From the NCBI RefSeq assembly GCF_020805785.1, contig NZ_JAJGZV010000008.1, positions 124,001-188,000 on the forward strand: a DNA stretch of 64,000 nt, written 5' to 3'. The stretch is from Flavobacterium chungbukense (lineage in GTDB: Bacteria; Bacteroidota; Bacteroidia; Flavobacteriales; Flavobacteriaceae). Below, piece by piece: positions 9,281-40,833 of the stretch. A program made the translations under genes and the position numbers. Each line of letters starts with the position of its first letter. Within the stretch, counting starts at the first letter, position 1. The notes below the pieces were generated by a model, which was not told where the DNA came from, ran no database searches, and was given only the letters and a program-made list of their open reading frames with translations.

Positions 9281-9450
9281 AAACACATAGAATCATAGAT
9301 TTTCTTAGTGTATAGAGGCGTTTCACTAGTTTGAACACACATAGCTGCATTTTTACTTGTTTAGATTTACAAATCTTAGCTATGTGTTAGAAACTAGTTT
9401 CTTTTAGTATACTTTTTCAAGTCTAAAAAATTTATGTTTCTATGTGTTTA
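9281..9450. repeat. Nested palindromic intergenic element, copy 1
   Basis: A 170-base element with outer arms AACACATAGAATCATAG (left) and CTATGTTTCTATGTGTT-like (right). Inside are inner arms GGCGTTTCACTAGTTTGAA and GAAACTAGTTTC around a CACATAG/CTATGTG core. It fills the gap between the GH2 gene and the agarase-like gene. Copies 2-4 are at 10915, 13318 and 40700. It holds no ORF. Confidence 0.85.
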
Positions 9451-9455
9451 AAAAT

Positions 9456-10874
9456 TTATTTTTTATCAAAATAACGAGTCAGCTCATAAGCATTATCATT
9501 AATGACTTTCATCTCTTTTAATAAAGGCAAATACGGTTCAAAATTACTATTGACAATTCCTTTGTTTGAATCTCTGTTCGAATAATCGGTGCTTAAATCC
9601 TGCGGATCGTTATCCATGTATTTGAACCAATGCCAACCGACACTGTTTTTATTTTTAAGTAAATCCAAAGTAAAGTTCTGATAGAAAAGCCCTCTTTCTT
9701 TTTGCGTACGAACTAGCCATCCTGCACCTGTATTATTTGGCAGTCCAGAATCTTCTCCTTTTGTATACCATTCTGTAATTAAAAATGGTTTTCCTGACCA
9801 TTCTCCCCAATTGTTCATTAATTCCTGACTTGGCTCCCATTTTCTATAATGATTTATCGAAATGATATCCATATACTTTCCAGCTACTTTAAAAATTTCA
9901 GGATTGGTCAATTCTTGTTCTTTATCCTGATTGAAACGACAGCCTAAATACAGATGATTTGGATCTGCTTTTCTAAGCGCTTCGGTCACTTTTTTCATAT
10001 AAGTTTCAAAATAAAATGCTGTAAATGCCATTCTATCTTCCTGAGTAACATCAGATAATGATGCATTAAATCCTTTTCTTTGATCTAACCAAGCTTTTGC
10101 AGCGATATAACCCTGCTCATCTTTGGCCAATAAAGTTAAATGTTTATCTAATGCGTCATTATACCAAGGAAGCTCATTATCAGTAAAATAACCCATCAAA
10201 TACTTATCATTTTTATACTGAGAAACCTCTTCTACCGATTTTTGGACATAAGAATCAAATTCTTTATCGAAAACCATAACCAAATCAAAGCGGTAATTCT
10301 GCCAGCTCGCTTCTTTGTATTTTCCACCGTATTTTTTAATATGATCGGAATGATACATTCCCATTGGCGAAATAATTACGGTATAAACCAGCGGATTTTC
10401 TGCATTTTTAACCAAATCAACATTCGACCACGCTCCTACGCCATTGAATCCGTTGTTACGCAATAGTTTAGATTCTTGTTTCACCCAATTTTCTTTGCTT
10501 CCGTATTTTTTATCAAATGCCTTTTGCTGATTTACAGAACGCCCTGCGTTGAAAACTGCAATTCCTTTGTAAATAAACGGATAACCTTCTGGATCAATAA
10601 TCCACCATCTATTGTCTATTTTTTCGGTTCTAAAAAATCCTGTTGCTTCTTTCTGCCAAACTTTAAAACCGCCATAAATTGAAGTCGATTCTGTTTTTTT
10701 CGTTTTAAATCCAGGCAATTTATCAATGGTTTTAGCGTCGTAAGTCACCCATTTCGGATCTAATGCATTTTGTCTTGCTTCGACTTTTTGGTACGTAATT
10801 TTATTCTGTGCATTCAACGGTATTAGGCTTGTAAAACAGAACAATATGCAAATGGAATGTTTCTTTAAATTCAT
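9456..10874 (-). CDS. Secreted clan GH-A glycoside hydrolase, agarase-like (GH50-like)
   Basis: 472 residues from the ATG at 10874, which gives a clean signal peptide (MNLKKHS to LNAQ). A longer in-frame start at 10958 lies inside the repeat element and is unlikely. The N-terminal half has RWWIIDPEGYPFIYKGI, as in proteins usually annotated beta-agarase. The barrel carries GYFTDNELPW with probable acid/base Glu234 and PFLITEWYTKG with probable nucleophile Glu368. These are two glutamates on strands 4 and 7, as in clan GH-A. Many such Bacteroidota proteins sit in loci for land-plant or algal hemicellulose, so the agarase label may not reflect the substrate. In PUL1 it probably acts with the GH10 and GH2 enzymes. 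Confidence 0.75.
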   Translation of the reverse strand: MNLKKHSICILFCFTSLIPLNAQNKITYQKVEARQNALDPKWVTYDAKTIDKLPGFKTKKTESTSIYGGFKVWQKEATGFFRTEKIDNRWWIIDPEGYPFIYKGIAVFNAGRSVNQQKAFDKKYGSKENWVKQESKLLRNNGFNGVGAWSNVDLVKNAENPLVYTVIISPMGMYHSDHIKKYGGKYKEASWQNYRFDLVMVFDKEFDSYVQKSVEEVSQYKNDKYLMGYFTDNELPWYNDALDKHLTLLAKDEQGYIAAKAWLDQRKGFNASLSDVTQEDRMAFTAFYFETYMKKVTEALRKADPNHLYLGCRFNQDKEQELTNPEIFKVAGKYMDIISINHYRKWEPSQELMNNWGEWSGKPFLITEWYTKGEDSGLPNNTGAGWLVRTQKERGLFYQNFTLDLLKNKNSVGWHWFKYMDNDPQDLSTDYSNRDSNKGIVNSNFEPYLPLLKEMKVINDNAYELTRYFDKK

Positions 10875-10914
10875 TTTTAATTGTTTTTTTGAGAGGAATA
10901 TTGCCTCTAATTTT

Positions 10915-11050
10915 AACACATAGAAACATAGTTTATTTTGAACATAAAGACGTTTCACTAGTTTGAATTCACATAGCGCATCTATGTTTGAGAAACTAGT
11001 TCTCTTTATATTCTTTTAAAGTTTAAAAAATCTATGTTTCTATGTGTTTA
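10915..11050. repeat. Nested palindromic intergenic element, copy 2
   Basis: Same plan as copy 1: AACACATAGAAACATAG at the left end, GACGTTTCACTAGTTTGAA then CACATAG, CTATG then GAGAAACTAGTTCTC, and ATCTATGTTTCTATGTG at the right end. It fills the gap between the agarase-like gene and the glycan-binding lipoprotein gene. Confidence 0.85.
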
Positions 11051-11056
11051 GAAAAA

Positions 11057-11956
11057 TTATTTAGATAAATAAATATGATCGATATCGAAAATGTAATTAT
11101 TTAAAGCTCTTACATCTTCAGGATCAACACTTCTTAAAACCAAAATATCTTTGATTTTCGTTAAATCTAAAAGTGCATTTTGCTTTTTATAATCCGCAAT
11201 CGGAATTTTAACCATGTTCCAGCTTCCGTCTCTTTTTAATCCGTAAAGATTACTTGTGGCATCAAATTCTACATAACCTGTATTGGAAGCATCTTTCATT
11301 CTAAATCTGATTTTGCCGGTGCTGGTTGTTCTTACTGCTAAATTCAGATAAGTGTAAGATGAAATATCGGTGAAATTTACAAACGAAAGAATCGCCATTG
11401 CCCATTTAGCTTCTGCAGCTGGAGGTGTTGCTGGAAGAGAAAAATTTCTATAAGCACCTTCATATCCTTCGGTTGCCACTTCTTTAATTACAAATTGATT
11501 GCTTGAAACCCAGTTTAAAACAGGAGCTGTTTTGGTGAAATCAGGGTTTTCAGAATAAATTTTAAGCGCATCCACTGGAACAACAATTGGCGGAGTTGGC
11601 GGCGCTTCAACCACAACGGTAAAAGTTTTCTTTTCAATTGTATTATCAGTATGTGTTATCTCAAGAGTGGTAGTAAATGTTCCTGCTTTAGTATATTTTA
11701 CCTCAACAATTGGTTCGATCGAAACACCGGGAGAACCTCCTTGAAAGGTCCATTTGATAGCACGAACTTTTGTAGACGAATCGGTATACGTAACCGTTTC
11801 TCCTCCTTTAATAGCAGTATTGGTTGAAGTTGCTTCTATTGTTCCCTTTTTATAAAGATATACTTCGCGTACATCATCTTCGCAGGAAAACAAAACAGCA
11901 ACAAGCACAAAAAATAAATATTTTAATTTGTCTATATGATTTAGTTTTATGGTCAT
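11057..11956 (-). CDS. PKD-domain surface glycan-binding lipoprotein
   Basis: 299 residues from the ATG at 11956. The lipobox is AVLFSCEDD. Residues about 30-120 form a PKD-type Ig-like domain (GGETVTYTDSS, KAGTFTTTLEITH), followed by a Pro-rich linker (EAPPTPPIVVP). A C-terminal beta-sandwich (about 130-299) resembles carbohydrate-binding domains (FVNFTDISSYTYLNLAVRT, GSWNMVKIPIADY, and an acidic end FDIDHIYLSK). Placed among SusC/SusD and xylanase genes, it is most likely the SusE/F-like lipoprotein that binds polysaccharide at the cell surface. No catalytic residues are evident. Confidence 0.8.
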   Translation of the reverse strand: MTIKLNHIDKLKYLFFVLVAVLFSCEDDVREVYLYKKGTIEATSTNTAIKGGETVTYTDSSTKVRAIKWTFQGGSPGVSIEPIVEVKYTKAGTFTTTLEITHTDNTIEKKTFTVVVEAPPTPPIVVPVDALKIYSENPDFTKTAPVLNWVSSNQFVIKEVATEGYEGAYRNFSLPATPPAAEAKWAMAILSFVNFTDISSYTYLNLAVRTTSTGKIRFRMKDASNTGYVEFDATSNLYGLKRDGSWNMVKIPIADYKKQNALLDLTKIKDILVLRSVDPEDVRALNNYIFDIDHIYLSK

Positions 11957-11997
11957 GATTTTAATGTTTTTGGTTAATTTTTTTTTTGAGAGAATAA

Positions 11998-12122
11998 TAG
12001 ATGCAAGAAGCAAGAGTAAAGATTTCTTCTAATATCTTGTCTCTTGTTTCTTTTTAGAAAATAGATCCAAGAACAAAGAAGAAAGACTTTCATCAAATCT
12101 TGTTTCTTGCTTCTTGCTTCTA
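11998..12122. repeat. Inverted repeat of AAGAAGCAAGA type
   Basis: The gap between the glycan-binding lipoprotein and GH10 genes is filled by an imperfect inverted repeat. The arm at 11998-12025 (TAGATGCAAGAAGCAAGAG...) matches the reverse complement of 12095-12122 at 24 of 28 positions, with further pairing inside. It differs in sequence from the four-copy element but has the same nested layout and the same kind of location. Confidence 0.7.
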
Positions 12123-12130
12123 CACTTCTC

Positions 12131-13222
12131 TTACTTCAATCCATCTAAAAATCCTTGATACGCCGCTTTTTTATTATAATCTGCGTCTAAAAGCAAAGGA
12201 TATTCGTTTGAGTGCCAGAAACTTGTAAGCCAAGTATACTTATCCGTCACTCCCCAAGTCGAAATGGCAAATTTTTGAGTTTGAGGCAATTCTTCATACA
12301 TCGATGTAATGTATTTGTATGTCTCTGATTGTTTTTGCGCTTCGGCATCATTAAAAACATACGAATCTGATTTTGCTGTATTTACCTTGATATCTAATTC
12401 TGAAATGTGAATTAGCAATCCTGTCGAAGCCATATCGGTAAAACCAGTTTTCATGGTTTGTCTGTTGGTATCTGTTGCGTAATGAAACTGATCTCCAATA
12501 CCATCAATTGGCACTCCGTTGGCTTTAAATCTCGTTACCATTTTTTTGATTGCAGCTCTTTTTCCTGCATCAATAACAACGCTGTAATCATTGTAAAATA
12601 ATTTAGCATCTGGATCTGCAGCTTTGGCATAACGGAAACATCTTCCGTAAAAACCGATTGGATCTTTGAAAAGAGAATTGATTACAGTTTCGTTTCGCAT
12701 AGCACCTCCATCTGCAAAAACTTCGTTGACAACATCCCAGCTTTTTACTTTGCCTTTGTATCGGCCTACAACGTCGGTAATGTAAACTTTGACTTTTGAC
12801 TCAAAAGCAATTGAATCGTATTTGGCATTTTTAAACCATTCTGGAAAAGAATCGTACCAAACCAAAGTATGTCCGTGAACTTCTAATTTATTGTCTTGAG
12901 CAAAGCCTACTAAATAATCGGCAGCGGTATAATTGTAAGCCGTTGAAGAAGTCCAAATACTCGCCATTTTCATTTCGAATTCGGCTGTAATCTGACTGTA
13001 ATGCTTTAAAACGGCATTTTTAAAATTGGCTTCATTTTGCAAATCTCTCATTTTGACCGCAGCACCAATTTTAAATTTTGCTTTTTCTTTTAAGGTCTGT
13101 GTAATCGGATTTGGATTTCCGGTATCGCCTTCATCTGCATTTATAAAAACTACTTTTTCGTCGTTGCTGCAAGAAGCAAACATCAAAGCGGTTAATGCTC
13201 CTAAAATATATTGTTTTATCAT
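12131..13222 (-). CDS. GH10 endo-beta-1,4-xylanase, lipoprotein
   Basis: 363 residues, with a lipobox LMFASCSND at about 14-22 and then a Glu/Asp-rich spacer. The GH10 barrel starts near residue 48 (FKIGAAVKMRDL). HGHTLVWYDSFPEWF, the acid/base Glu167 in WDVVNEV, and the nucleophile Glu275 in HISELDIKV are all present, as is the C-terminal WGVTDKYTW. The enzyme should cut internal xylosidic bonds in xylan. As a lipoprotein it probably works at the cell surface, passing oligosaccharides to the SusC/SusD pair encoded just upstream. It is the clearest clue to the substrate of PUL1. Confidence 0.95.
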   Translation of the reverse strand: MIKQYILGALTALMFASCSNDEKVVFINADEGDTGNPNPITQTLKEKAKFKIGAAVKMRDLQNEANFKNAVLKHYSQITAEFEMKMASIWTSSTAYNYTAADYLVGFAQDNKLEVHGHTLVWYDSFPEWFKNAKYDSIAFESKVKVYITDVVGRYKGKVKSWDVVNEVFADGGAMRNETVINSLFKDPIGFYGRCFRYAKAADPDAKLFYNDYSVVIDAGKRAAIKKMVTRFKANGVPIDGIGDQFHYATDTNRQTMKTGFTDMASTGLLIHISELDIKVNTAKSDSYVFNDAEAQKQSETYKYITSMYEELPQTQKFAISTWGVTDKYTWLTSFWHSNEYPLLLDADYNKKAAYQGFLDGLK

Positions 13223-13239
13223 CGTGTTAATTTTTAATA

Positions 13240-13275
13240 GATCTGGAAATCAAAACCAAAAATGATTTCCAGATC
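13240..13275. other. Perfect 13-bp hairpin in the leader of the GH10 gene
   Basis: GATCTGGAAATCA (13240-13252) pairs exactly with TGATTTCCAGATC (13263-13275), with a 10-base loop. In the minus-strand transcript it lies 18 bases before the xylanase start and after susD. There is no T-run, so mRNA stabilisation or processing between susD and xylanase is more likely than termination. Confidence 0.55.
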
Positions 13276-13317
13276 AGTGTTAGTAACTAAAAACTTAATT
13301 CATAACTTATAATTTTT

Positions 13318-13457
13318 AAACCCATAGGATCATAGATTTTTTCAAACTTAACAAAGGCGTTTCACTTATTTAAATTCACATAGTTCTCTATGTGTGAGAA
13401 ACTGGTTTCTTTTTTTAAACTCTTCTCGTAATTTTAAATCTATGTTTCTATGTGTTA
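13318..13457. repeat. Nested palindromic intergenic element, copy 3
   Basis: Left end AACCCATAGGATCATAG, then GGCGTTTCACTTATTTAAA and CACATAG. Right half CTATGTGTGAGAAACTGG, ending ATCTATGTTTCTATGTG. It lies between susD and the GH10 gene. It is somewhat more diverged than copies 1 and 2. Confidence 0.85.
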
Positions 13458-13464
13458 AAATCAA

Positions 13465-15054
13465 TTAATACCCAACGTTAAATCCTGCAGGTTTTCCCAT
13501 CAAATCGATTTGCGATTGCGGAATTGGCATGTTTACCATGACATGAGTCATTTTTAATTGTACTTCACCAGAAATAGTTCCAGATGGACTTGAACGGAAA
13601 TACAAATTCTGTCTTTCTACCAAAAGCCCTAATCTTTTCAATAAAAACCATCTGTTATTTTCGAATGCCAATTCTCTCGCAGATTCGTCTAAATAATTAT
13701 TTAAAGTCCAAGCGGTTAAATCGTAAGTGGTTACGGCACTTTCAGGATTTCCAGTGTAACCTCTTCTTCTTACTTTGTTCAAATAAGCCAATGCTTTTCC
13801 GTCATTTCCTAAATTATGATACGCTTCAGATGCTAACAAGTAGGTTTCTGCCAATCTGTAATACATATAATCTTTATAACTGTTTGAAGTCATTGGCAGT
13901 TTTTCTGTATCGTGATATTTCTTCAAACTCCAATGCCAAGCTCTGTAATTTCCGTTTGGAGCTGCAATGGCAGGATTGGTAATCGGTTGTCCAAATTTTG
14001 GGTTTCCAGCAACATTGATTTTATAATCTTGATAATTATCTGAATAATAATACGTTTTGAACCTTAAATCGTTCGTCTGATCGTAAAGTGATTTCAGGTA
14101 ATTATTTGGATAAAACCATCCTAAAGCCTGACCTCCATAAGCTACATCTTGAACCAACTCGCTTGTATTCAATTCGTAAGTTCTGTGGGTGAAAACACTG
14201 CTCAGCCAAGAACCGCCGCCTCCAGCTAAATTATCATCAGGGCCTAATAAGAAGTCTTTTTGGTATGTAAAAAGCGATTCTTTATGATTTCCGTTTTGTC
14301 CCCAAACATCAATAAGATTTACTAAACCATGAGTACCGTCATTAATAATCGCATCAAATTGAGCTGCTGCTCCTGCCCAGTCTTGCTGCCATAAAGCGCT
14401 TTTCCCGCGAATGTGCCTTGCAACACCTTGCCCGTAACGTCCTGGATCTACTTTGAATGGAAGATTTGCAATTGCATAATCTAAATCTCCATCAATTAAT
14501 TTGTACACATCTGCATCACTTGCTACTTTGTATTCTACTGGATCGTTAATGTTTTGTGGTGTTGTTGGAATCGTATCGATTAAAATTCCACCATACATTT
14601 GTTTTAAATCCAAATACAATTCACCGCGAATAACACGTGCCTGTGCCACTAATCTTTTTTTAGCTGCTTCATCCATTTGGATTGATCTTGCAGCCGTAAT
14701 TATAGCAGAACATCTGTCGATAATTTTATAGCCTTGAATCCATTTTGAACCTGTAAATGATTGCGGATTATGTCCTGTTCCGTAAGGTGTGTTCCAAGTT
14801 CTGTGCAATCCTAAATCGGTTGCCACCATAAAGAATACGTTTGCCCACAAATCGCTATTATCGCCAGATGGCAAGTTGTAAAAACGCATCTGATTGTAAA
14901 GTGCATTAACTCCAACTTCTAAACCTGCTGGAGAACTGTAGACATAATCTACAGAAACTTGATCTTTTACCGTTTCTTCTAGAAATTCTTCGCATGAAGT
15001 AAGTCCCAAAGAAAGTCCGAAAATCAAAACAAATAGAAAATTTATATTTTTCAT
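13465..15054 (-). CDS. SusD/RagB-family nutrient-binding lipoprotein (PUL1)
   Basis: A 529-residue lipoprotein: signal peptide with LGLTSCEEF lipobox at residues 16-24, then FLEETVKDQVSVDYVYSS, the usual SusD opening. Helical TPR-like segments include RVIRGELYLDLKQMYGGI, and YYRLAETYLLASEAYHNLG is the common C-terminal SusD signature. SusD proteins lid the SusC barrel at the outer membrane and bind oligosaccharides. It starts 27 bases after the SusC stop, so it is clearly in the same operon. The substrate is inferred from the GH10 neighbour. Confidence 0.95.
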   Translation of the reverse strand: MKNINFLFVLIFGLSLGLTSCEEFLEETVKDQVSVDYVYSSPAGLEVGVNALYNQMRFYNLPSGDNSDLWANVFFMVATDLGLHRTWNTPYGTGHNPQSFTGSKWIQGYKIIDRCSAIITAARSIQMDEAAKKRLVAQARVIRGELYLDLKQMYGGILIDTIPTTPQNINDPVEYKVASDADVYKLIDGDLDYAIANLPFKVDPGRYGQGVARHIRGKSALWQQDWAGAAAQFDAIINDGTHGLVNLIDVWGQNGNHKESLFTYQKDFLLGPDDNLAGGGGSWLSSVFTHRTYELNTSELVQDVAYGGQALGWFYPNNYLKSLYDQTNDLRFKTYYYSDNYQDYKINVAGNPKFGQPITNPAIAAPNGNYRAWHWSLKKYHDTEKLPMTSNSYKDYMYYRLAETYLLASEAYHNLGNDGKALAYLNKVRRRGYTGNPESAVTTYDLTAWTLNNYLDESARELAFENNRWFLLKRLGLLVERQNLYFRSSPSGTISGEVQLKMTHVMVNMPIPQSQIDLMGKPAGFNVGY

Positions 15055-15081
15055 GATCTTGTTATTTTTTATTTTATTGAA

Positions 15082-18000
15082 TTAGAAACCAACTTGTAAG
15101 CCTATAACACAAGTAACAGGTTCTGGATAATCGTATATTTCTTTCTCTGGACTGTATGATTGATAATCTGTGATTGTAATTAAATTACTTCCAGTTACAT
15201 ACAATCTCATATTACTTAATCCTAGTGGTTTAAGAGTGCTTTCTGGGAATTTAAATCCGACAGAAACGTTTTGTAAACGAACATACGAAGCATCTTGCAA
15301 TCCTAAAGTGTTAATATATGGCGGATCATTTCCGTCTCTTGGTCTTGGCCAATTTCCTCCAGGATTTTCTGGTGTCCAATAATCTTGTTTGATTCCGTTT
15401 TTAACTCCTCTTAAAGAACCTCCGCGTACATAGTCGTATAAAAATGGATTGTCTCTTGTAATACCTTGAACGGTATAGATATCTGCTGAAAAATCGAATT
15501 GTTTGTATTCTAAAGCCACAGAAAAAGTACCAAACCAATCCGGCATTTTGGAAGTGATCACCCTATCCTGATCCGGATTTGGATTGGCTCCATTTGACGG
15601 ATCTGCATCCCATAATTTGATATCTCCAGGATATAAAGTTGTTCCTGTTACAAGAGGAATATTTTCTCCTTCTTGATAAATTCCAACCGCTTTATATCTG
15701 TAATAAACATCAATTGGTTTTCCGATAAACCATAAATTTCCAACAGAATTATCTTCTTTTCCGTCACCGTCAGCATCTTTTCCGTAGATACTTACAATGC
15801 TATTTTTGTTTTTAGTGAATGTTGCTCCAAGGTTTAATCTGAAATCTTTCTTTTTGATTACATCTCCATTCAAAGAAACTTCTAAACCTTTATTATTTAC
15901 TTTTCCAATATTTGAAAGTTTGGTTGTGTAACCTGTATTCGCGTTAAGCGTTTCATAAATCAATAAATCTGAAGTATCGGTATTATAAACCTCAACCGTT
16001 CCGTTTAATCTATTTTTGAATAAACCAAAATCTGCAGCAAGGTTTAATTGCGTTGAAGTTTCCCATCTTAAATCTGGATTTGATAATTGATTTCCTGGAA
16101 CATAACCCGAAACTTTTACACCATTAATAATATAATCTCTTTGTGTAGCAGTTGCCATACTTTGATAGGGATTTTGAGGCTGATTTCCGACTTTACCATA
16201 ACTTGCTCTTAGTTTTAAATTGCTCAAAACTGGAACATGTTCTTTCATGAATTCTTCGTTAGAAACATTCCATGCCGCGTTTACAGCTGGAAAAAATCCC
16301 CATTTATTATTTGCTCCAAATACAGAAGATCCATCGGCTCTTCCTGAAACGGTAAAATAATATTTGTTATCAAAATCATATTCTAATTTTCCAGCGAAAG
16401 AAATAAGCGATCTTTCATTTCCTCCAATTAATGGTGTATTTAAAAATGCACTTTCTAAACCATAAATTCCCAAAATATCACTCGGAATTCTGCTTGCTGA
16501 GTTTCTAAAATCATTGTATTCTGATGAGGTGATTTCATAAACCCCAGTTACATTAAAATGATTTTTTTCGGCTAAATTCAAGTTGTAATGCAAAATATTA
16601 CTCAACTGATATTCTACATTATCTTTATACTCGATATAACCACTTCCTTGTCCTGAATTGGCAATTCCAGAAAGCGATTTTGAACTATTAAAACTCATTG
16701 CTTTATAATTCCAAGATCTGCGGCTGGCATTTAGTTTATATGTAAAACCTTTTGCAAGATTAATATCTACAAACACGTTCATGATATCGTTGCGGTTCAA
16801 CTCGTTTGTAGTGGTTTCGTAAATATCTATAAGCGGATTTGGGGTTTCTTGAATTCCTCCTGGCAAATAACGGAAAGATCCATCTGGATTATAAACTTGC
16901 CCAAGTGGCGAAGTATTAATAGCATTGTTTAAAATATTCCCCACATTCGGACGATTCGATTCAGAAAACTGAAGTGAAACATTCATTCCGATTTTCAGCC
17001 AATCTGTAACTCTTTGATCCACATTTACTCTCATCGCTACTTTGTCATAGTCCGAATTTGGAACTACTCCCGTAGTATTAATGTAGTTGATACTAGAAAA
17101 TATGCTCGTTTTATCCGTTCCTGACGAAATGCTCAAACTATGGTTATTCGTTACACCAGTTCTTAAAACCAATTTTTCCCAATCGATATATTTTCCAGAC
17201 TGAACCGATTCTAATTCTAATGGAGTGAAAACTTGATTGTCTGGTCTGTAAACTCCATTGTTACTTGTTCTGTATGCTTCTCTTTTTAGTTGCGCAAATT
17301 CTTCTCCGCTGTAAACATCAAAATTTCTATTTACTGTTTGAACTCCAGAAAAACCATTATAAGAGATTTTTGCTTTTCCTGTTTTTCCTCTTTTTGTAGT
17401 AATCAAGATAACTCCGTTAGAAGCTCTTGCTCCGTAAATAGATTGTGCAGCAGCATCTTTTAGAATTTCCAAAGAAGCAATATCATTTGCATTAACATCA
17501 TTAATACTTCCAATTACGATTCCGTCCGCAATTACGATTGGTTCGTTACTTCCATTAATGGATTTTTTTCCTCTAATTTGAATTGAAGAAGAACTTCCTG
17601 GTCCGCCATCGGCTAAACTTACCTGAACTCCAGCTGCTTTTCCTCTCAACATTTCTCCAACATCTGAAGTGGCCACTTTTGTCAAATCGCCTGGTTTTAC
17701 AGAAGCCACCGAACTGATTACGTCACTTTTCTTTTTGGTGCCGTAACCAACAACTATAATTTCGTCCAGCGCTTGTGAACTTTCTTTTAAAACTACTTTT
17801 AGATTTTTTTTATTTTCTACATCAACAGCAGTTTCATCCATTCCGATAAAAGAAAAAACTAATATGCTTTTTGGAGCGGTATTAATACTGAAGTTACCGT
17901 CAAAATCGGTTTGAGTTCCTTTTGTGCTTCCTTTTACGTGGACGTTTACACCTGGTAAAGGCAGTCCTTTATTATCTACTACTTTTCCGGTCACGGTATT

Positions 18001-18108: not shown

Positions 18109-18456
18109 TGTAAATTGGTTTGGTTAGTTAATTAATAAATCGTGTGATTACATTGCAAAAGTGCTTAATTAAAGGCTTCTGCAAGGGAGGGTGTTATTCG
18201 TTTTTAGGGGTGTCAATGTCTTTCTTTGAGGATTTTGTATTATTTGAAGGTAGAAAAAATGGTATTCGTAATAAAAAACTTAATTTTTAATAAGACAGTT
18301 AGTTTTCAGATTGTAACATAAATTTAAACGCAAAGAGGGAAACGTAAAGTCCAGAAAAAATTTAGCCACAGATTATTAGGATTAAAATGATTTTAAAAAT
18401 CTGTGTTAATCTGTATAATCTGTGGCTAAAAATTGTGTGCAATTAAAAATAAACTA
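18109..18456. other. Gap between HTCS gene and susC with a 16-bp inverted repeat
   Basis: This 348-base gap should hold the PUL1 promoter (minus strand). On the minus strand a CACTTTTGCAATG stretch about 50-60 bases before the susC ATG loosely resembles the Bacteroidota -7 box, but I could not place a convincing -33 box. At 18361-18376 and 18415-18430 lies a perfect 16-bp inverted repeat (TTTAGCCACAGATTAT and complement). Its interior again contains AATCTGTG-type repeats. It follows the HTCS stop and could end that transcript, but the sequence looks like another dispersed intergenic repeat. Confidence 0.6.
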
Positions 18457-22581: not shown

Positions 22582-22754
22582 AAAGGAAATTGAATAAAGC
22601 CCGAATAATTAATTGCGATAAACCTATGAAAAAAATCAATCGATTGCGGTGCAAAATAGCCTTTATTCTGAAAAAAGAAGAGGGAGTTTTTTCTTTTTAA
22701 GGGGTGTAGATGTACTTTATTAATTGTTTTTTTAAAAGAAAAATCATTTTTAAA

Positions 22755-22906
22755 CCCGATAGCGCAGATTTTTAATCCGTGCCCGCAAAGATTGGTTAGT
22801 TCTCTTTGTAAATATAAAAAAGTACATTAATTGTGTAACTTTTATTTTAGTGATTTGTTTTGTGTCTTACTGGTGCGGGCACGGATTGCAAATCCGCGCT
22901 ATCGGG
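22755..22906. repeat. Long inverted repeat with REP-like arms
   Basis: The left arm at 22755-22787 (CCCGATAGCGCAGATTT...) and right arm at 22874-22906 (...AATCCGCGCTATCGGG) are near-exact reverse complements over 33 bases, separated by about 87 AT-rich bases. Each arm can also form its own small hairpin (CGGATT/AATCCG). GC content is well above the surroundings. The layout is that of paired REP or MITE-like sequences. Confidence 0.8.
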
Positions 22907-22936
22907 ATTATTGATGTTAATTGATATGCTGTGTGT

Positions 22937-22962: not shown

Positions 22963-23021
22963 AATGAAATTCTATTTTAATTTATATTTGTTTCAGTACA
23001 AAAATTAATTAAATACTCCCC

Positions 23022-24858: not shown

Positions 24859-24860
24859 GG

Positions 24861-28353: not shown

Positions 28354-28366
28354 AATTTATAATTTA

Positions 28367-30169: not shown

Positions 30170-30186
30170 TTTTGTAGTAATTAAAA

Positions 30187-33429: not shown

Positions 33430-34008
33430 GGTTGATTGTTTAAGTTATTAATTGTTTTTAGTCGTGGTTTAAGTGGTTTTTTGTGGTTACTTTCAATTCA
33501 TTTATTTAATTATTACAGGTATTTATGTTTACTATTATATCACATTTCTTAACAAATCGGATTAATTATAATCCCTTTTTAACTTCTCGTTACTTAATCG
33601 ATTTCGAAGATCAAAAATAAAGTTGTAATCGATTACACAAACATAAATATTTTTTTTAAACGAAAAATAATTTTTCATAAAAAAGTCATAAAAAAAATTA
33701 TATATCAAAAAAAATATTGATTTTTTATATGAGATATATAATTTTAATGAACATAAAATATTAAATATATTATTACTAATCGTTCATTTGATTCGATTTT
33801 TACAAAAAAAACAATCGATTACATGAATATTAATTATGAAATTATTAGGTGTATTTTTTACACTTAAAAAGTTAAAAAGATGCTAATTTTTTTTAAATCA
33901 ATACCGGAAAAACAGGATTTTTTAAAATGAATTTTCTGATATAAAGAAGAATTGGTGCCGAAAAAAGGGTATTTTTCAATCCAAGCAATTGAATTTAAAC
34001 ATAAAAAA
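33430..34008. other. Long AT-rich promoter region of PUL2, no gene seen
   Basis: This stretch has no convincing ORF and is very AT-rich. It separates the PUL2 susC start from the terminator of the MFS gene. AATCGATT-type sites occur at 33595-33602, 33624-33637 (fully palindromic) and 33813-33824 (half-matching). That clustering within 230 bases suggests a regulator-binding region. The -7/-33 boxes of the susC promoter were not clear to me. Confidence 0.5.
33624..33637. promoter_or_regulatory. Palindromic operator-like site, LacI-family type
   Basis: TGTAATCGATTACA is a perfect 14-bp palindrome with a central CG, the usual shape of LacI-family operators. It lies about 195 bases upstream of the PUL2 susC start. 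A partial copy (CAATCGATTACA) is at 33813-33824 and an AATCGATT core at 33595. No LacI gene is in this window, so the regulator would be encoded elsewhere. Confidence 0.5.
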
Positions 34009-34033
34009 AGCCCTTAAACAAAAGTTAAGGGCT
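34009..34033 (-). terminator. Terminator of the MFS gene
   Basis: AGCCCTTAA (34009-34017) pairs exactly with TTAAGGGCT (34025-34033). On the minus strand it is followed by seven T residues. It is 24 bases beyond the MFS stop. Confidence 0.85.
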
Positions 34034-34057
34034 AAAAGAATGTATTTTTTTTAAGTG

Positions 34058-35224
34058 TTAAATATGCTGCAACTGCACTTTCTTTTGATGTAACTTTATC
34101 AATATGAATGTAATAATCATACCGATAATTGACATTGCTACTCCAATCAGGTTTGGAGAAGAATAGCTTAGTCCTGCCGCCAGTGGCAATCCGCCTAGAA
34201 AAGCGCCTAAAGCGTTACCAATATTAAAACTCCCTTGAAGCGATGCCGAAGCAATCATCTCTGCTCCTTTCGCTGTGCGAATCATTAGCATCTGAATTGG
34301 TGCAATAACCGAGAATGAAATAGCTCCTGTTAAGAAAGTTAGAAATAAGGAAACATATTGATTGAATGAGAAAAAGTAAACTAAAACTAAATCTAAAGAC
34401 ATTACCATTAATAAGGCTAAAGTAGTTGGTGCTGGCGAGAATCTATCTGCTAATTTTCCTCCAACAAAATTACCAACAACCATCCCTAATCCTGCTAGGA
34501 TCAAGATTGAAGAAACATCTTCTGGCTCAAATTTCGATACATTAATTAATAAAGGAGCAATATAACTGATCCAAGCAAATAAACCTCCAAAACCAATTGC
34601 AGTAATTCCGATAATCAACCATGCTTCCGTTTTCTTAAAAAACTGAAGTTGTGTTTTCATGTTGACACTTTCTCCTTTTTCAAGATTTGGCATCCATAAA
34701 TAAATGGCTAAAAATGTTAATAGACCAACAATTGCAATTAGCACAAAAGTATAACGCCAAATAAAATGATGTCCAATATAAGTTCCAATTGGCACTCCGA
34801 TTAAGTTAGCAATTGTTAATCCTGCAAACATGGTTGATATAGCCTGAGCTTCTTTTCCTTTGTCTGCTAAACGGCTTGCCACTACAGCACCAACTCCAAA
34901 GAATGCGCCATGCGGCAAACCTGAAAGAAATCGAGATGCAAATAAAACATTATAATCTGGAGCAATAATAGACAACGCATTAAAAACTGCCAGCATTAAA
35001 GCTAAGATTAAAAGCATTTTTTTAGGCGCATAATTTCTACCAGCAATCACCAATAAAGGTGCACCAATAACAACTCCTAAAGCATAAGATGAAATTAAAT
35101 ATCCCGCAACAGGAATTGAAACTTTCATATCTGAAGCAATATCTGGGAGTAATCCCATCATTACAAATTCTGTAATTCCAATAGTTAACCCTCCAAGAGA
35201 GAGTGCAATAAGACTTTTTTTCAT
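34058..35224 (-). CDS. MFS exporter, DHA1/AraJ-like
   Basis: A 388-residue inner-membrane protein with about 12 hydrophobic segments. It opens with SLGGLTIGITEFVMMGLLPDIA, characteristic of AraJ/YdhP-type drug:H+ antiporters. RFLSGLPHGAFFGVGAVVASRL near 98-119 and PIGTYIGHHFIWRYTFV near 149-165 match their conserved loops. Such transporters export small compounds using the proton gradient. The substrate is unknown. It is divergent from an AraC regulator gene, which likely controls it. Confidence 0.9.
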   Translation of the reverse strand: MKKSLIALSLGGLTIGITEFVMMGLLPDIASDMKVSIPVAGYLISSYALGVVIGAPLLVIAGRNYAPKKMLLILALMLAVFNALSIIAPDYNVLFASRFLSGLPHGAFFGVGAVVASRLADKGKEAQAISTMFAGLTIANLIGVPIGTYIGHHFIWRYTFVLIAIVGLLTFLAIYLWMPNLEKGESVNMKTQLQFFKKTEAWLIIGITAIGFGGLFAWISYIAPLLINVSKFEPEDVSSILILAGLGMVVGNFVGGKLADRFSPAPTTLALLMVMSLDLVLVYFFSFNQYVSLFLTFLTGAISFSVIAPIQMLMIRTAKGAEMIASASLQGSFNIGNALGAFLGGLPLAAGLSYSSPNLIGVAMSIIGMIITFILIKLHQKKVQLQHI

Positions 35225-35327
35225 TTTGATTTATTGTAGAAAGGAATAGATTTCTACGTTGCAAAATTAACACCGTTAACCGAATTAGAAATTGTATATT
35301 TGTGATATAAAATTGTACATTTAAGTT

Positions 35328-36161
35328 ATGCCGAAATTAAATCAGTTTAAAACGCTTGTACTTGATGAATTTGAAGAAGAGAAATTTCATCTTCCTCCGC
35401 ATACGCATACCTATTATGAAATCATCTACATTAATAAAGGAAGCGGCATTCATCATTTAAATCATAATTTGCTGCCATACAAAGCGGGAGATCTATTTGT
35501 AATTTCACCAGACGATGAACATTATTTTGACATTAAGAAAAGTACGCGCTTTACCTTTATCAAATTCACCGATAATTACTTCAATTCTAAACAAAATCTT
35601 ACTTGCGATGAATTTTTGGTCAATACACCGGAGAGTTTCATGCGTGATAAAATCTTGAAAGAAACAGTTCTAAAGTTTGATGAACCTTGTAAAACGATTC
35701 TAAAAAACACGGTTGAAAACATTATTACGTACGGAAAATATATTGATGTGACTTCTTCTCCAATTGTTTTTTATCAGATTCTTTCGATTTTTGGTTTAAT
35801 TAAAGAAACCATTCGAGGAATGAATTTACAGATGAAATCGCCACATCTTGATAATGAACAAATTGCGAATTATATTCATCAAAATATTTATCAGCCAAAA
35901 TTGGTTCAGATTAAAGTGATTGCAGATCATTTTAATATTGCTCAAACCTATTTCAGTGCTTATTTCAAAAGAACATTCAGTATCAGTTACCGCGAATACA
36001 TTCATAATTTGAGAACCACTCTAATCGAAAAAAGATTCCATAACAATCAATTACCGATTAAACAGATTGCCTATGAATTTGGTTTTACCGACGAAAGCCA
36101 TTTGACCAATTATTTCAAAAAACGTAAAAACATGAAGCCAACAGATTTTAAGAAACTGTAG
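35328..36161 (+). CDS. AraC-family regulator with cupin sensor, divergent from MFS gene
   Basis: A 277-residue protein. The N-terminal cupin is at about 10-75 (HLPPHTHTYYEIIYINKGSG, YKAGDLFVISPDDEHYF), and the C-terminal AraC HTH pair is at about 180-277 (VIADHFNIAQTYFSAYFKR, IKQIAYEFGFTDESHLTNYFKK). A TATATTTG box at 35295-35302 fits a Bacteroidota -7 element 26 bases upstream of the ATG. The 103-base divergent intergenic region with the MFS gene suggests that it senses a compound and regulates its export. Confidence 0.9.
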   Translation: MPKLNQFKTLVLDEFEEEKFHLPPHTHTYYEIIYINKGSGIHHLNHNLLPYKAGDLFVISPDDEHYFDIKKSTRFTFIKFTDNYFNSKQNLTCDEFLVNTPESFMRDKILKETVLKFDEPCKTILKNTVENIITYGKYIDVTSSPIVFYQILSIFGLIKETIRGMNLQMKSPHLDNEQIANYIHQNIYQPKLVQIKVIADHFNIAQTYFSAYFKRTFSISYREYIHNLRTTLIEKRFHNNQLPIKQIAYEFGFTDESHLTNYFKKRKNMKPTDFKKL

Positions 36162-36231
36162 TTATTGAAATCTTAAAAAGTGATTTACTCGAACAATTTT
36201 AGCTAAATTTGTAATTCTAAAAAACAATTTC

Positions 36232-36591
36232 TTGACCAAAAAAACCCACATAATAATGCTTTTTCTAACGCTGACTTTCCTTTTGAATCCAGGTTATACA
36301 TACGCATGCAATATGGGACATCATAAAGAAATTGCCGTTAAGGAAGAAAACAGCTGTTCTAAAAAATGCTGCGAGAAGAAAACTTCAAAAGAAAAAAAAC
36401 ACAATTGCGATGGAAAATGCCGTCATTCTGGCTGTAATACAACAAGCTTTTCAAGCATTATTTTAACTTCTAATGAATTTGATTTAGAAAATAATGTTTT
36501 TAATTTTTCTTTAAAAAACACTTTCACTTATTATCCTGAAGTAACTATTTCTTCGGGTTTTACTTCCATCTGGCTAAAGCCGAAGATATAA
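36232..36591 (+). CDS. Small exported Cys/His-rich protein of the copper locus
   Basis: 119 residues from a TTG at 36232, which keeps the basic n-region of the signal peptide (MTKKTHIIMLF to YTYA). An ATG at 36256 is the alternative start. The mature part begins CNMGHHKEIAVKEENSCSKKCCEK and continues with HNCDGKCRHSGC: eight Cys and several His within about 50 residues, fit for metal binding. The last 50 residues look like an ordinary beta-rich tail. It precedes DUF3347, an HMA-AraC regulator and a copper ATPase, so periplasmic copper handling is likely. The family is not named to my knowledge. Confidence 0.7.
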   Translation: MTKKTHIIMLFLTLTFLLNPGYTYACNMGHHKEIAVKEENSCSKKCCEKKTSKEKKHNCDGKCRHSGCNTTSFSSIILTSNEFDLENNVFNFSLKNTFTYYPEVTISSGFTSIWLKPKI

Positions 36592-36692
36592 TTATTGCAT
36601 TTCTGACAGCCCATATTGGGTCTTTTTTGAATCGAAAACTTTTAAATTAATCTAAAGGAAATTTGAAAATCCTTTATCAAATATCAAACACA

Positions 36693-37220
36693 ATGAAAAA
36701 ATCCATAATAGCTTTAACAGCAACAATCGCCATTTTATTTTCTACAAATAACATTCAGGCAAGCACACCAAATTCTGAGTTAACAACAATCGAAATTGCA
36801 GATGCTCAATTACAAAATGTTTATGATGCATATTTCACTGTAAAAGATGCACTTATAAAAAGTGACAGCAAATTGACTTCGGCAAAAGCCGCAGCTTTAT
36901 TGACTGCAATTACAGCAGTAAAAATGGACAAACTAAAAAGTAACGAACATACAGTTTGGATGAAAGTGGTAAAGAAACTAACTTCTGATGCAAAAAGCAT
37001 TTCGTCTACAACAGATTTAAAAAAACAACGTGAAACTTTTAAATCGTTATCTAAAAGTACTTATGATTTAATTAAAGTTTCAAGTCCAGAACAGCCAATT
37101 TACAAACAATATTGCCCAATGGCAGACGCAGATTGGTTGAGCAAAGAAAAAGCAGTTAAAAATCCGTATTACGGTTCTTCGATGCTGACTTGCGGAAACG
37201 TGGTAGAAACGATTAAATAA
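36693..37220 (+). CDS. DUF3347 exported protein of the copper locus
   Basis: 175 residues from the ATG at 36693 (signal peptide ending IQAS). A TTG at 36663 is in frame but would disturb the signal. A helical domain with repeated Leu/Ala (VYDAYFTVKDALIKSD) is followed by the conserved C-terminal motif YKQYCPMADADWLSKE and KNPYYGSSMLTCGNV. Its Cys, Met and Tyr spacing is typical of DUF3347 modules found with copper efflux genes in Bacteroidota. It probably binds a metal ion in the periplasm. It is followed after one base by the HMA-AraC gene. Confidence 0.85.
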   Translation: MKKSIIALTATIAILFSTNNIQASTPNSELTTIEIADAQLQNVYDAYFTVKDALIKSDSKLTSAKAAALLTAITAVKMDKLKSNEHTVWMKVVKKLTSDAKSISSTTDLKKQRETFKSLSKSTYDLIKVSSPEQPIYKQYCPMADADWLSKEKAVKNPYYGSSMLTCGNVVETIK

Positions 37221-37221
37221 T

Positions 37222-37782
37222 ATGAAGCTTTACATCAAAAATATGGTGTGCAGCCGATGCAAAATGGTTGTGAAGTCTGAGTTCGAAAAACTCGGACTTC
37301 AAACTATTGCTGTTGAATTGGGCGAAGTTGAAATTGAGAAAGAAATCAATGACAATCAAAAAGAAGTCTTATTAGAAAATCTTCAAGCTTTAGGTTTTGA
37401 TTTAATTGATGATAAAAAAACGAAAACAGTCGAAAGAATAAAGAATCTAATTGTGGATTTGGTTCATCATAAAAACAATGATCTTAAAATCAACTTGTCT
37501 GATTACTTATCAGAAAACCTCAATCAAGATTATAATTCGTTAAGCAATTTATTTTCGGAAATTGAAAACACGACAATCGAAAAGTATTTCATCAGCCAAA
37601 AAATAGAAAAGGTAAAAGAATTATTGATTTATAATGAGCTTTCGTTAAGCGAAATTGCCGATATTCTCAACTACAGTAATGTGGCGCATTTGAGCAATCA
37701 ATTCAAAAAAATTACAGGCTTTACTCCTACTTCGTTCAAACAATCGAAAGATAAAAAACGGATTCAGATCGAGAATTTGTAA
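37222..37782 (+). CDS. HMA-AraC fusion, probable copper-sensing regulator
   Basis: 186 residues. The N-terminus (about 1-65) is a heavy-metal-associated domain: MKLYIKNMVCSRCKMVV with the metal-binding Cys10-x-x-Cys13. The C-terminal half (about 105-180) has an AraC-type HTH (LSLSEIADILNYSNVAHLSNQFKKITG). The middle is a helical linker. Metal binding at the HMA domain probably changes DNA binding directly, making it a one-component copper sensor. It lies between DUF3347 and copA, the likely targets. It starts one base after the DUF3347 stop, so it is in that transcript. Confidence 0.88.
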   Translation: MKLYIKNMVCSRCKMVVKSEFEKLGLQTIAVELGEVEIEKEINDNQKEVLLENLQALGFDLIDDKKTKTVERIKNLIVDLVHHKNNDLKINLSDYLSENLNQDYNSLSNLFSEIENTTIEKYFISQKIEKVKELLIYNELSLSEIADILNYSNVAHLSNQFKKITGFTPTSFKQSKDKKRIQIENL

Positions 37783-37787
37783 AAGTC

Positions 37788-38044
37788 AATTTCTCGCAAG
37801 GTCGCAGAGGCGCAAAGTTTTATTTCACGCAGATTTTAAAAGATTTAAGCAGATTTTGCAAATATTTATTTGTTAATCAAATCTGCTCAATCTGCGTGAA
37901 AACTTTAAAAACTTATTGCCTTATCTTTATTTAAAAAACTCACGCTTCTGCAACTTTGCGAGATTAATACAAAATTTTTCAAAAATTCAGCTTTAAATCA
38001 AGTAGATCAAAAAAAATCTGCTCAATCTGCTCAATCTACGTGAA
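37788..38044. repeat. Gap with nested inverted repeats before copA
   Basis: The 363-base gap (37783-38145) has no ORF. Outer arms TCTCGCAAGGTCGCAGAGGC (about 37791-37810) and the complement near 37935-37964 enclose inner arms TTTCACGCAGATTTT (37823-37837) and AATCTGCGTGAAA (near 37890-37901). A further ATCTGCTCAATC set follows at 38016-38043. The layout mirrors the four-copy element but the sequence differs. The copA promoter must lie here or just after. Confidence 0.7.
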
Positions 38045-38145
38045 ACAAAAACCTTTGTAAATCTTACAAATCATTCACAAAATTCTACAAACCAAACTCA
38101 CAGATACTTCGGAAATTTGCATTGTAATACTTAAAAACCAATACA

Positions 38146-40680
38146 ATGACTCATCAATATATAATTTCAGGAATGTCTTGCAACGGATGCCGAACCAAAG
38201 TAGAAAAAACTTTGAATGAAGTAGATGGCGTTCAAGCAGAAGTAACTTTGAATCCTCCAACGGCTACGATTATAATGGACAAACACGTTGCGACAGAAAA
38301 ATTTCAAGAAGTTTTAGCTGCAGCGGGAAATTATACAATTGAAATGGATTCTCCTAAAAACCATTCTGAAACAGCAGTTAAATCATGTTGTTCTAGTCAT
38401 AAAAAAGAGCATCACGATCATCATAAAATAGATACAAAAAAAGCACCTCAACATAGTGCAAATGGCATTTATTATTGTCCAATGCATTGCGAAGGCGACA
38501 AAACCTATAACAAACCCGGAGATTGTCCTGTTTGCGGAATGGATTTAGTGCCACAAATTGCCATAACAGCAACACAATTTACTTGTCCGATGCATCCAGA
38601 AATTGTTTCAAACGAACCAGGCGATTGTCCGATCTGCGGAATGGATTTGGTGCCGATGCAGGCTTCTGAAAGTGAAGAAAACAAAACCTATTCTGATTTA
38701 TTGAAGAAGATGAAAATTGCGATTTTGTTTACGCTTCCTATTTTCATTATTTCAATGTCAGAAATGATTCCGAATAATCCATTTTACAATATAATGTCGA
38801 TAGAAAAGTGGAATTGGGTTCAGTTTTTATTTTCAATTCCAGTTTTGTTTTATGCGGGTTGGATGTTTTTTGTTCGTGCTTACAAATCGATTGTTACTCG
38901 GAATCTGAATATGTTTACTTTAATTGGAATTGGAACCAGTGTTGCTTTCTTATTTAGTATTGTCGGAATGTTTTTTCCAGATATTTTTCCAGCCGAATTC
39001 AAATCACATCACGGAACGATTCATTTGTATTTTGAAGCTGCAACTGTAATTATCACTTTAGTTTTATTGGGACAATTATTGGAAGCCAAAGCGCACGGAC
39101 AAACGAACGGCGCAATCAAAGAATTATTAAAATTAGCTCCAACTGAAGCTGCGTTGGTTGAAAACGGAATTGATAGAGTAATCTCCATTCACAACATTCA
39201 AAAGGGAAATTTACTTCGGGTTAAACCAGGAGAAAAAATTCCAGTTGACGGAAAAATAACTTCTGGCGAAAGTAACATCAACGAATCGATGATTACGGGA
39301 GAACCAATTCCCGTTGATAAAAAAGTTGGAGACGCAGTAATTTCTGGAACCATAAATGGCACCAAATCGTTTGTAATGATTGCTGAAAAAGTGGGTTCAG
39401 AAACGATGCTTTCGCAGATTATTCAAATGGTCAATGACGCGAGCAGATCTCGCGCTCCAATTCAGAAATTGGCCGATCGCGTTTCTAAATATTTTGTTCC
39501 GACTGTTGTTATTATTTCGATTGTAACCTTTTTTGTTTGGGCGAAATTTGGACCTGAACCATCATACATTTACGGATTAATCAATGCCATTGCTGTTTTA
39601 ATTATCGCTTGTCCTTGCGCACTTGGACTCGCAACTCCGATGTCTGTTATGGTGGGAGTTGGTAAAGGTGCACAAAACGGAATCCTGATCAAAAATGCTG
39701 AAGCATTGGAAAACATGAATAAAATTGATGTTTTAATTACCGATAAAACAGGAACAATTACCGAAGGAAAACCTTCTGTAGAAAAAATATATGCCTTTAA
39801 TAATGAGGAAGATTTTCTGCTTCAAAATATTGCTTCCTTAAATCAGCATAGCGAACATCCTTTGGCGCAGGCTGTCGTCAATTTCGCGAAAGCAAAAAAT
39901 AGTTCTTTAAAAGAAGTTAAAGGTTTTGAAACTATCGCAGGAAAAGGTGTTTTAGGAAACATTGAAAACAAAAAAGTAGCTTTAGGAAATAAAAAATTAA
40001 TGGCTGAAATCGGCGCTTCTATTTCTGAAAATTTAGAAAAACAAGTTACTGCCGAGCAAAATTTAGGCAAAACGATTTCTTATATTGCTATTGAAAAAGA
40101 AGTTTTAGGTTATGTAGCCATTACCGATGCTATCAAAGAAAATAGCGCAAAAGCAATCAAGGAATTAATCAATCAAGGCGTTGAGGTTATCATGATGACG
40201 GGCGATAATCACAACACCGCAAAAGCCGTTGCGAAACATTTGCATCTGACTTCTTTTAAAGCGGATTGTCTTCCAGAAGATAAATTAAAAGAAATTGAAC
40301 GTCTTCAAGCGCAAGGAAAAATTGTTGCGATGGCTGGCGACGGAATCAACGATGCGCCAGCTTTAGCACAATCAAACATTGGAATTGCAATGGGAACAGG
40401 AACTGATGTTGCGATCGAAAGCGCAAAAATCACTTTGGTAAAAGGCGATTTAAACGGAATTGTAAAAGCAAAAAAACTGAGCCACGCCGTTATGTCAAAT
40501 ATCAAACAAAATCTATTTTTTGCTTTTATTTATAATACTTTAGGCGTACCAATTGCAGCAGGAATTTTATATCCTTTTTTAGGAATTCTGCTTTCGCCGA
40601 TGTTGGCTGCGGTGGCAATGAGTTTGAGTTCTGTATCTGTAATCGTAAATGCTTTGCGATTGAGAAATTTAAAATTATAG
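38146..40680 (+). CDS. copA: Copper-translocating P1B-type ATPase (CopA-like)
   Basis: 844 residues. An N-terminal HMA domain has Cys12 and Cys15 (GMSCNGC), followed by a His-rich stretch ([10 protein letters not shown], about 85-95). Two heavy-metal-binding modules follow: [25 protein letters not shown] and FTCPMHPE...GDCPICGMD, at 109-133 and 146-167. Catalytic parts include Cys489-Pro-Cys491 in the membrane, Asp533 in [14 protein letters not shown], and GDGINDAPA. The [14 protein letters not shown] ending fits Cu(I)-exporting P1B-1 pumps. It moves Cu(I) from cytoplasm to periplasm at the cost of ATP, in a locus with the HMA-AraC sensor and a multicopper oxidase. Confidence 0.95.
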
Positions 40681-40699
40681 ACTTGAATTTAATTATTTT

Positions 40700-40833
40700 A
40701 ACACATAGAATCATAGTTTCACTTGTCGTTAAAAGGCGTTTCACTTGCTTCAGTGCACATAGTTTAGCTATGTTTTGAAACTAGTTTCTTTTATTATCTT
40801 TTTTAAACAAAAAATCTATGTTTCTATGTGCTA
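40700..40833. repeat. Nested palindromic intergenic element, copy 4
   Basis: Left end AACACATAGAATCATAG, then GGCGTTTCACTTGCTTC and CACATAG; right half CTATGTTTTGAAACTAGTTTC, ending ATCTATGTTTCTATGTG. It sits between copA and the oxidase gene. Unlike copies 1-3 the flanking genes are on the plus strand, yet the element has the same orientation. Confidence 0.85.

Follow-up and report, generated by a model that had tools for sequence, protein, structure and literature searches.

A dispersed gene-less palindrome of Flavobacterium, probably a non-coding relative of palindromic elements that carry GxxExxY nuclease genes

Many bacterial genomes have palindromes dispersed through their gaps, mostly of unexplained origin. 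Among the closest described systems, miniature inverted-repeat transposable elements (MITEs), including the ERIC and RU repeats, are small, AT-rich and intergenic, with inverted ends, tens of copies and foldable transcripts (PMC10969869). REP and REPIN sequences, which are associated with RAYT or TIRYT genes, are extragenic palindromes of 20-40 nt with a GTAG (or CGTC) tag at one end, many copies and apparent turnover (PMC3733652). Intervening sequences (IVS) of 23S rRNA combine complementary ends, a small loop open reading frame of unexplained function and a sporadic distribution (PMC4990558). We describe here a family that resembles all three in these traits, apart from the size and tag of REP and REPIN, found in a 64,000-nt stretch of Flavobacterium chungbukense (contig NZ_JAJGZV010000008.1, positions 124,001 to 188,000; hereafter the window). 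Four sequences in the window are, in our judgement, probably copies of a dispersed, gene-less Flavobacterium palindrome of about 145 bp, a non-coding relative of palindromic elements with a GxxExxY nuclease gene, spread by way of hairpins or cruciforms.

The preliminary description of the window had placed four copies of one nested palindrome in intergenic gaps, and they are indeed found there, at 9278-9452, 10915-11048, 13315-13460 and 40695-40837 (copies 1-4). Two arm patterns each occur exactly four times in the window, once per copy; mean column identity among the copies is 73%, and their outer arms, of 24-26 nt, are 84-92% complementary. The shared nested plan holds for all four copies, whereas the arm letters quoted for it are exact in some of them only: the left arm AACACATAGAAACATAG occurs as such in copy 2, copies 1 and 4 read AACACATAGAATCATAG and copy 3 reads AACCCATAGGATCATAG, while GTTTCACTAGTTTGAA is an exact match in copies 1 and 2 only and the mini-hairpin of copy 2 reads GAAACTAGTTCTC. 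Inward-pointing units of the CRCANAG type are present in all four window copies and in A5; the outermost left unit of copy 3 is CCCATAG. Folding z-scores against 100 mononucleotide shuffles are -8.0, -7.1, -5.0 and -4.3, and the genome contains 85 occurrences of the 15-mer CTATGTTTCTATGTG with at most one mismatch (45 forward, 40 reverse), compared with one of the reversed control; given this excess and these z-scores, the four copies are not a product of chance.

The family is numerous, lies between genes mostly soon after stop codons, and has a conserved anatomy. At least 48 full or partial copies occur in the 5.35-Mb genome (BLAST with copy 2 plus an arm pattern), a floor, as 40 of 130 candidates were scored in the BLAST-based search and results were pooled by hand. 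Typical length is about 145 bp. Read in its own orientation, a copy comprises the outer arm TTTAAACACATAGAAACATAG, about 18 nt, the asymmetric core AAAGGCGTTTCACTTG, the apical stem CACATAG/CTATGTG, the mini-hairpin GAAACTAGTTTC, about 30 nt and the outer arm CTATGTTTCTATGTGTTTAAA, the element ends being TTTAAACACATAG/CTATGTGTTTAAA in the alignment. In each of the 43 copies measured, 17-27 nt separate the left arm from the core; long right spacers were reported for two copies, C1:256342 and the gene-bearing C15:58985 (contig and position in the F. chungbukense genome; the window lies on C15), and some long apical spacers given by the spacer script are the product of a loose hairpin match. As a separate observation, stretches resembling the core flank the apex of C10:132814 (L070, about 2690-2836) on either side, which makes this copy a nearly symmetric variant.

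Confinement to intergenic regions, which the preliminary description had proposed to check, is borne out: 47 of the 48 copies overlap no called gene (threshold >60 nt, simple gene call), and the 48th overlaps only the gene in its own loop. Copies start mostly within a few tens of bases past a stop codon, some much further. The neighbours of the 47 copies for which both genes were called are tandem in 40 cases, convergent in 6 and divergent in 1, compared with 63, 14 and 21 for background gaps of at least 100 bp on C15, so that divergent gaps are depleted (1/47 vs 21/98, p = 0.002). The common orientation noted earlier is real for the four window copies but does not extend to the genome, where both orientations occur; relative to flanking tandem genes, 25 copies are opposite and 15 the same (p = 0.15).

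The family also undergoes turnover at orthologous sites. A covariance model built from 30 copies of the F. chungbukense genome detects the family in 47 of the 101 genus genomes, under stricter filters and with 30 candidates per genome scored. With the 48 copies of the genome itself, this means that neither of the grounds for refutation named beforehand, absence of further copies or loss of the paired arms in relatives, is what is seen. In G006, which shares 200 kb with C15 at 77-92% identity in blocks over 2 kb, the counterpart of copy 1 has an altered interior with an assembly gap, copy 2 is represented by a small hairpin between arm remnants and copy 3 is truncated; C15:164695 (window copy 4) and the gene-bearing C15:58985 are common to both genomes, C15:45722 is absent and the site of C15:39169 has a different palindrome instead, these sites having been compared by eye. 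In G008, sites 1 and 3 hold no recognisable copy, site 3 being occupied by another palindrome, and copy 2 is inverted with a different loop. The gap orthologous to C15:45722 was read by eye in 30 of the 279 genomes that match its flanks: four species carry a copy in one orientation, the element is inverted in G041 and present as two inverted copies in G048, G386 retains little beyond arms, G082 has a degraded copy, G008 and G090 have other palindromes, and no element was recognised in 20 of the 30. The changes of orientation could have arisen by inversion between the symmetric arms or by independent insertion. Separately, the two CACATAG elements of G048 at this gap (L408) are in tandem and alike in orientation. 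These comparisons, together with the presence of copies between unrelated genes, support the earlier proposal that the family is a dispersed DNA palindrome in turnover rather than an operon leader.

When 17 larger or odd copies were folded, 10 retained both arms with the extra segment in the apical loop, and several of these segments are themselves palindromes (TCCCGAAGCTTCGGGA, AACTTTGTCAAAGTT.., GTCATTTCGA..); C16:11150 has no insert, and the left arm of C10:132814 was cut off by the chosen folding ends. The copy at C15:39169 sits within another palindrome (GCCACAGATT..AATCTGTGGC). We infer a process acting on hairpins or cruciforms, because long inserts are mostly apical, orientation flips, and palindromes nest concentrically.

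One copy links the family to a gene. C15:58985-59595 (G000), 611 bp long, holds a decayed GxxExxY gene (TIGR04256, PF13366; 88 bits against a cut-off of 35) in its apical loop, a position read by eye. The ortholog in G006 keeps both arms and gene, and since stop codons lie at different places in the two genes, both are decaying. The gene is absent from the four window copies and, among the 48 copies of the genome, is present, broken, in this one; we therefore call the window copies relatives, and not members, of the GxxExxY palindromic elements. Both the decayed gene in the loop of one copy and the inverted arms around GxxExxY genes are new here: the open-access literature searched (Flavobacterium palindromes, GxxExxY, PF13366, iterons, IVS/four-helix bundle) yielded, among the papers listed, no description of the family or of GxxExxY arms.

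Inverted arms are a general companion of GxxExxY genes, which occur in 78 of the 101 genus genomes. At 72 distinct GxxExxY places, a non-random sample that was top-scoring or drawn from model-positive genomes, the inverted-arm score reaches 36 in 53 and 30 in 61 (54 and 62 of 73 with one duplicate counted). Among 63 small genes of C15 the corresponding figures are 3 and 4 (53/72 vs 3/63 at 36, p = 2e-17); with the syntenic G006 stretch added they are 6/125 and 11/125, many genes being counted twice, and random window pairs reach 36 in 2 of 600 cases. Around the 73 genes the CRCANAG motif points inward, with 106 occurrences on the plus and 17 on the minus strand upstream, 126 on the minus and 24 on the plus strand downstream, and 7, 5, 2 and 0 at 800-1100 bp from the genes; 39 of the 73 genes have the inward motif on both sides, compared with 0 of 69 controls. 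The window family probably belongs beside a wider class in which a GxxExxY gene, predicted to encode a PD-(D/E)XK nuclease, occupies the loop and the arms are built of CACAnAG-type inward units in about half of the cases tested. Remaining GxxExxY arms consist of other iterated units, and arm units differ widely in sequence. Ranked among 72, an arm's own partner has a median rank of 4 for upstream and 3 for downstream arms; for nine related arms the own pair is never the single best, so that compensation within one arm type is unsupported.

Gene-less palindromes with arms like those of GxxExxY loci also occur. In the gap downstream of alaS, read by eye in 30 of the 97 genomes that match it, G076, G095 and G055 carry a GxxExxY element and G010 a short gene-less palindrome whose arms are similar to those of the GxxExxY elements, and CATATAAG palindromes in G090 resemble the arms of a GxxExxY gene of F. 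chungbukense itself (L082). Two further observations were made by eye alongside these. The alaS 3' gap (L373-L402) holds, by species, a GxxExxY element, a CTAAG-iteron palindrome around a terminator-like hairpin, or nothing; and at L082 (1340-2000; C10:316576) a complete small CATATAAG palindrome lies upstream of the gene and a further right arm downstream. In a different gene family, that of the four-helix-bundle proteins (TIGR02436, L136-L165) known from 23S rRNA intervening sequences and present in 60 of 61 genus genomes, genes are often enclosed by inverted arms made up of short iterated units, with a median arm score of 35 over 28 loci and 9 loci at 36 or above.

Beyond the genus, a sample of 148 genomes from the phylum has GxxExxY genes in 74 of them. 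Arm scores of at least 30 are reached at 13 of 27 loci of the phylum-wide sample vs 1 of 54 control windows, the median being only 29 and 7 of the 27 reaching 36, and at 23 of 43 loci not titled Flavobacterium vs 1 of 36 control stretches; the inward motif lies on both sides at only 12 of these 43 (control 0/36). The scores are 97 and 76 for two Planctomycetales contigs and 49 for a Phycisphaerae contig, although these are contigs of metagenome-assembled genomes and may be misbinned, and loci titled Margulisiibacteriota, Desulfobacteraceae, Melioribacteraceae and one of two titled Ignavibacteriales score below 30. The structure model of the GxxExxY protein (predicted local distance difference test 94.2) suggests a PD-(D/E)XK-like fold, and D67, E77 and K79 are invariant in 42 sequences. 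A search by sequence with one protein found no solved relative at E <= 1, and Foldseek with the model gave no match at E <= 0.001, the best being SSO0001, a Cas4 protein, at 1.4e-3. A second structural comparison returned PD-(D/E)XK nucleases, namely SSO0001 (Z 9.8, root-mean-square deviation 4.4, 102 aligned residues) and the Holliday-junction resolvase HJC (Z 6.9, deviation 3.3, 87 aligned); in terms of the modelled fold, the likeness to HJC is too weak to serve as an argument for junction cleavage.

We infer active transposition of the family, with the GxxExxY nuclease as the likeliest candidate for a past mobility factor. In the cell, copies would probably ride along as near-neutral passengers in the gaps that follow stop codons. 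On transcription, a copy would form a strong hairpin, which may influence the 3' ends of mRNAs, an effect that is possible given that copies lie mostly soon after stop codons. A bolder proposal, which we hold tentatively and consider doubtful as a whole, is that GxxExxY nucleases are mobility factors of an undescribed class of iteron-armed palindromes across phyla, inserting at hairpin apexes or just after stop codons and spreading gene-less passengers such as the window family, in which case the way palindromes nest concentrically in gaps of Bacteroidota might be the trace of repeated apex insertion.

Several results weigh against the main interpretation, that of a gene-less relative of GxxExxY elements. 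Of the 183 GxxExxY locus records scanned, which represent about 178 distinct places, only one has CACATAG-type arms, so a single orthologous site, whose genes are broken, carries the tie between the CACATAG family and GxxExxY, and the gene may have entered the loop later, as other inserts did. Nineteen of the 72 GxxExxY places have no arms at the threshold of 36, 34 of the 73 genes lack the inward motif on both sides, and polarity is reversed at 4 of 73 loci in the genus, 5 of 27 in the phylum-wide sample and 5 of 43 outside Flavobacterium. Not every rearrangement is apical: one half is missing from C1:1170679, C1:1173051, C10:385918 and C9:1077840, in the last of which a further palindrome directly follows the mini-hairpin, and C4:76779 keeps its arms around an unrelated interior. 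Five of the seven copies on C15 have some counterpart in G006, so many copies are old and current activity is doubtful. No target-site duplication was recognised at the orthologous gap, where T-rich flanks blur the boundaries, and neither excision nor transposition was seen. Finally, the outer arms are nearly invariant, with no double changes found in them, when 51 copies taken from several genomes are aligned; one central pair fails in 13 of the 51 sequences, and double changes affect 4 pairs, no excess over shuffles (3.0 +/- 1.1, with 145 of 500 shuffles reaching this number).

The same alignment bears on the strongest alternative, namely that the family is an ERIC- or REP-like repeat selected for an RNA role, as a post-stop hairpin that protects mRNA 3' ends or tunes operon expression, with the GxxExxY copy a chance insertion. 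The preliminary description had called for compensatory changes; they do occur, although almost only in the mini-hairpin and not in the outer arms, where they were expected. Three of the five mini-hairpin pairs have changes on both sides, one of them from GC to AU in 10 of the 51 sequences, and over the whole structure 17 cells have double changes vs 5.6 +/- 1.9 in shuffles; the number of pair types (14 vs 12.9 in shuffles) is not unusual, and 20 of the 51 sequences do not pair at the outermost apical position. An RNA role would also suit the placement after stop codons, the depletion in divergent gaps, the strong folding of both strands and the location of several copies inside putative operons such as the polysaccharide utilization locus (PUL) of the window. 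Yet the strand preference relative to transcription is not significant, orientation flips and copies are absent at an orthologous gap between conserved genes, and unrelated palindromes occupy the same gaps in other species, which leaves this explanation unlikely. In its narrower form, a strand-specific RNA leader, it was rejected, as orientation is untied to transcription and flips at one site. Identity with a known RNA family was likewise ruled out: at the gathering score, Rfam 15 matches one tRNA in the window (51956-52030) and none of the copies, and four further loci have no match above it.

A MITE or REPIN-type element moved in trans by a Y1 transposase (IS200/IS605, RAYT/TIRYT) is more improbable still. 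Six Y1_Tnp genes occur in the genome, hairpin-rich targets would fit such enzymes, and a separate palindrome at 22751-22910 of the window (CCCGATAGCGC..CCGTGCCCGCA) resembles the inverted repeats that flank the Y1_Tnp gene at L370 of the same genome; from this likeness in sequence, that palindrome is probably of the Y1-transposase kind. For the CACATAG family itself, however, none of the six Y1_Tnp genes has arms of the CACATAG type as its best inverted arms within 300-500 bp (0/6 loci), on which ground a Y1 parent was rejected, the aligned ends have no GTAG or CGTC tag, and the length is about 145 bp rather than 20-40 bp. We give very little credence to a DNA site for proteins that organise the nucleoid or chromosome, in which the bound motif would be CACATAG, at about six per copy. 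In its favour, outer arms and CACATAG units are nearly invariant beyond mere pairing and strand preference is not significant; against it, 54 of 101 genus genomes have no match under the stricter filters, most of the 30 species lack a copy at the C15:45722 gap, and arm units of related elements differ widely.

Within the window, the parts of the four copies are listed in Table 1. The gene context given earlier agrees with Pfam: copies 1-3 separate genes of the PUL (GH2, GH10, PKD, SusD, a SusC-like TonB receptor and a hybrid two-component regulator; Pfam assigns no family to the gene at 9459-10958), and copy 4 is flanked by a P-type metal ATPase and a multicopper oxidase, the copA/oxidase pair of the preliminary description. 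Two other structures were noticed: a gene-less inverted repeat at 11989-12131 (I3) in the same PUL, whose arms are repeated AAGCAAGA-like units, and a strong inverted repeat, CCGTGGTTTCAACCACGGG, at 52201-52292, about 170 nt from the tRNA.

Table 1. Parts of the four palindrome copies, in window positions
Copy	Part	Sequence	Positions	Strand	Remark
1	left outer arm	TTTAAACACATAGAATCATAGATTTT	9278..9303	+	I8, 92% complementary
1	asymmetric core	GGCGTTTCAC	9317..9326	+	sets family orientation
1	apical stem	CACATAG (9338-9344) / CTATGTG (9380-9386)	9338..9386	+	35-nt loop
1	mini-hairpin	GAAACTAGTTTC	9390..9401	+	covarying
1	right outer arm		9427..9452	+	
2	left outer arm	AACACATAGAAACATAGTTTATTT	10915..10938	+	I9
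2	core	GACGTTTCAC	10949..10958	+	
2	apical stem	CACATAG/CTATGTT	10970..10988	+	
2	mini-hairpin	GAAACTAGTTCT	10992..11003	+	
2	right outer arm		11025..11048	+	
3	left outer arm		13315..13339	+	I13
3	core	GGCGTTTCAC	13356..13365	+	
3	apical stem	CACATAG/CTATGTG	13377..13394	+	
3	mini-hairpin	GAAACTGGTTTC	13398..13409	+	
3	right outer arm		13436..13460	+	
4	left outer arm		40695..40719	+	I10
4	core	GGCGTTTCAC	40735..40744	+	
4	apical stem	CACATAG/CTATGTT	40756..40774	+	
4	mini-hairpin	GAAACTAGTTTC	40777..40788	+	
4	right outer arm		40813..40837	+	

Among dispersed palindromes, one family is here tied to a small and widespread nuclease family, through its anatomy and a relic gene. If the link is true, the GxxExxY proteins, whose function is unexplained, would be candidates for a new type of mobile element, and gene-less palindromes could be sorted by their arms; the series of orthologous gaps offers a direct way to test palindrome gain and loss.

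Set against the described systems, the loop gene of C15:58985 is a member of the GxxExxY family TIGR04256/PF13366, and such a genetic context is undescribed in the sources used. REP/RAYT membership fails on tag, size and gene: compared with REP and REPIN, the window family measures about 145 bp, has no GTAG or CGTC tag and, by the best inverted arms within 300-500 bp, flanks none of the six Y1 genes. With MITEs it shares terminal inverted repeats and a size below about 500 bp, and by analogy it may work like a MITE or an ERIC-type repeat. It differs in having no recognised target-site duplication and no parental transposase found with the same ends, in its conserved asymmetric core and apical stem, and in a loop gene for a predicted PD-(D/E)XK nuclease rather than a transposase; the search for a parental element covered Y1 genes and found six Y1_Tnp genes without such arms, and one copy with a decayed GxxExxY gene shares the ends. 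The IVS of 23S rRNA may serve as an analogue, with the difference that the window family is dispersed between protein genes rather than in rRNA helices and that its loop gene is of the GxxExxY family.

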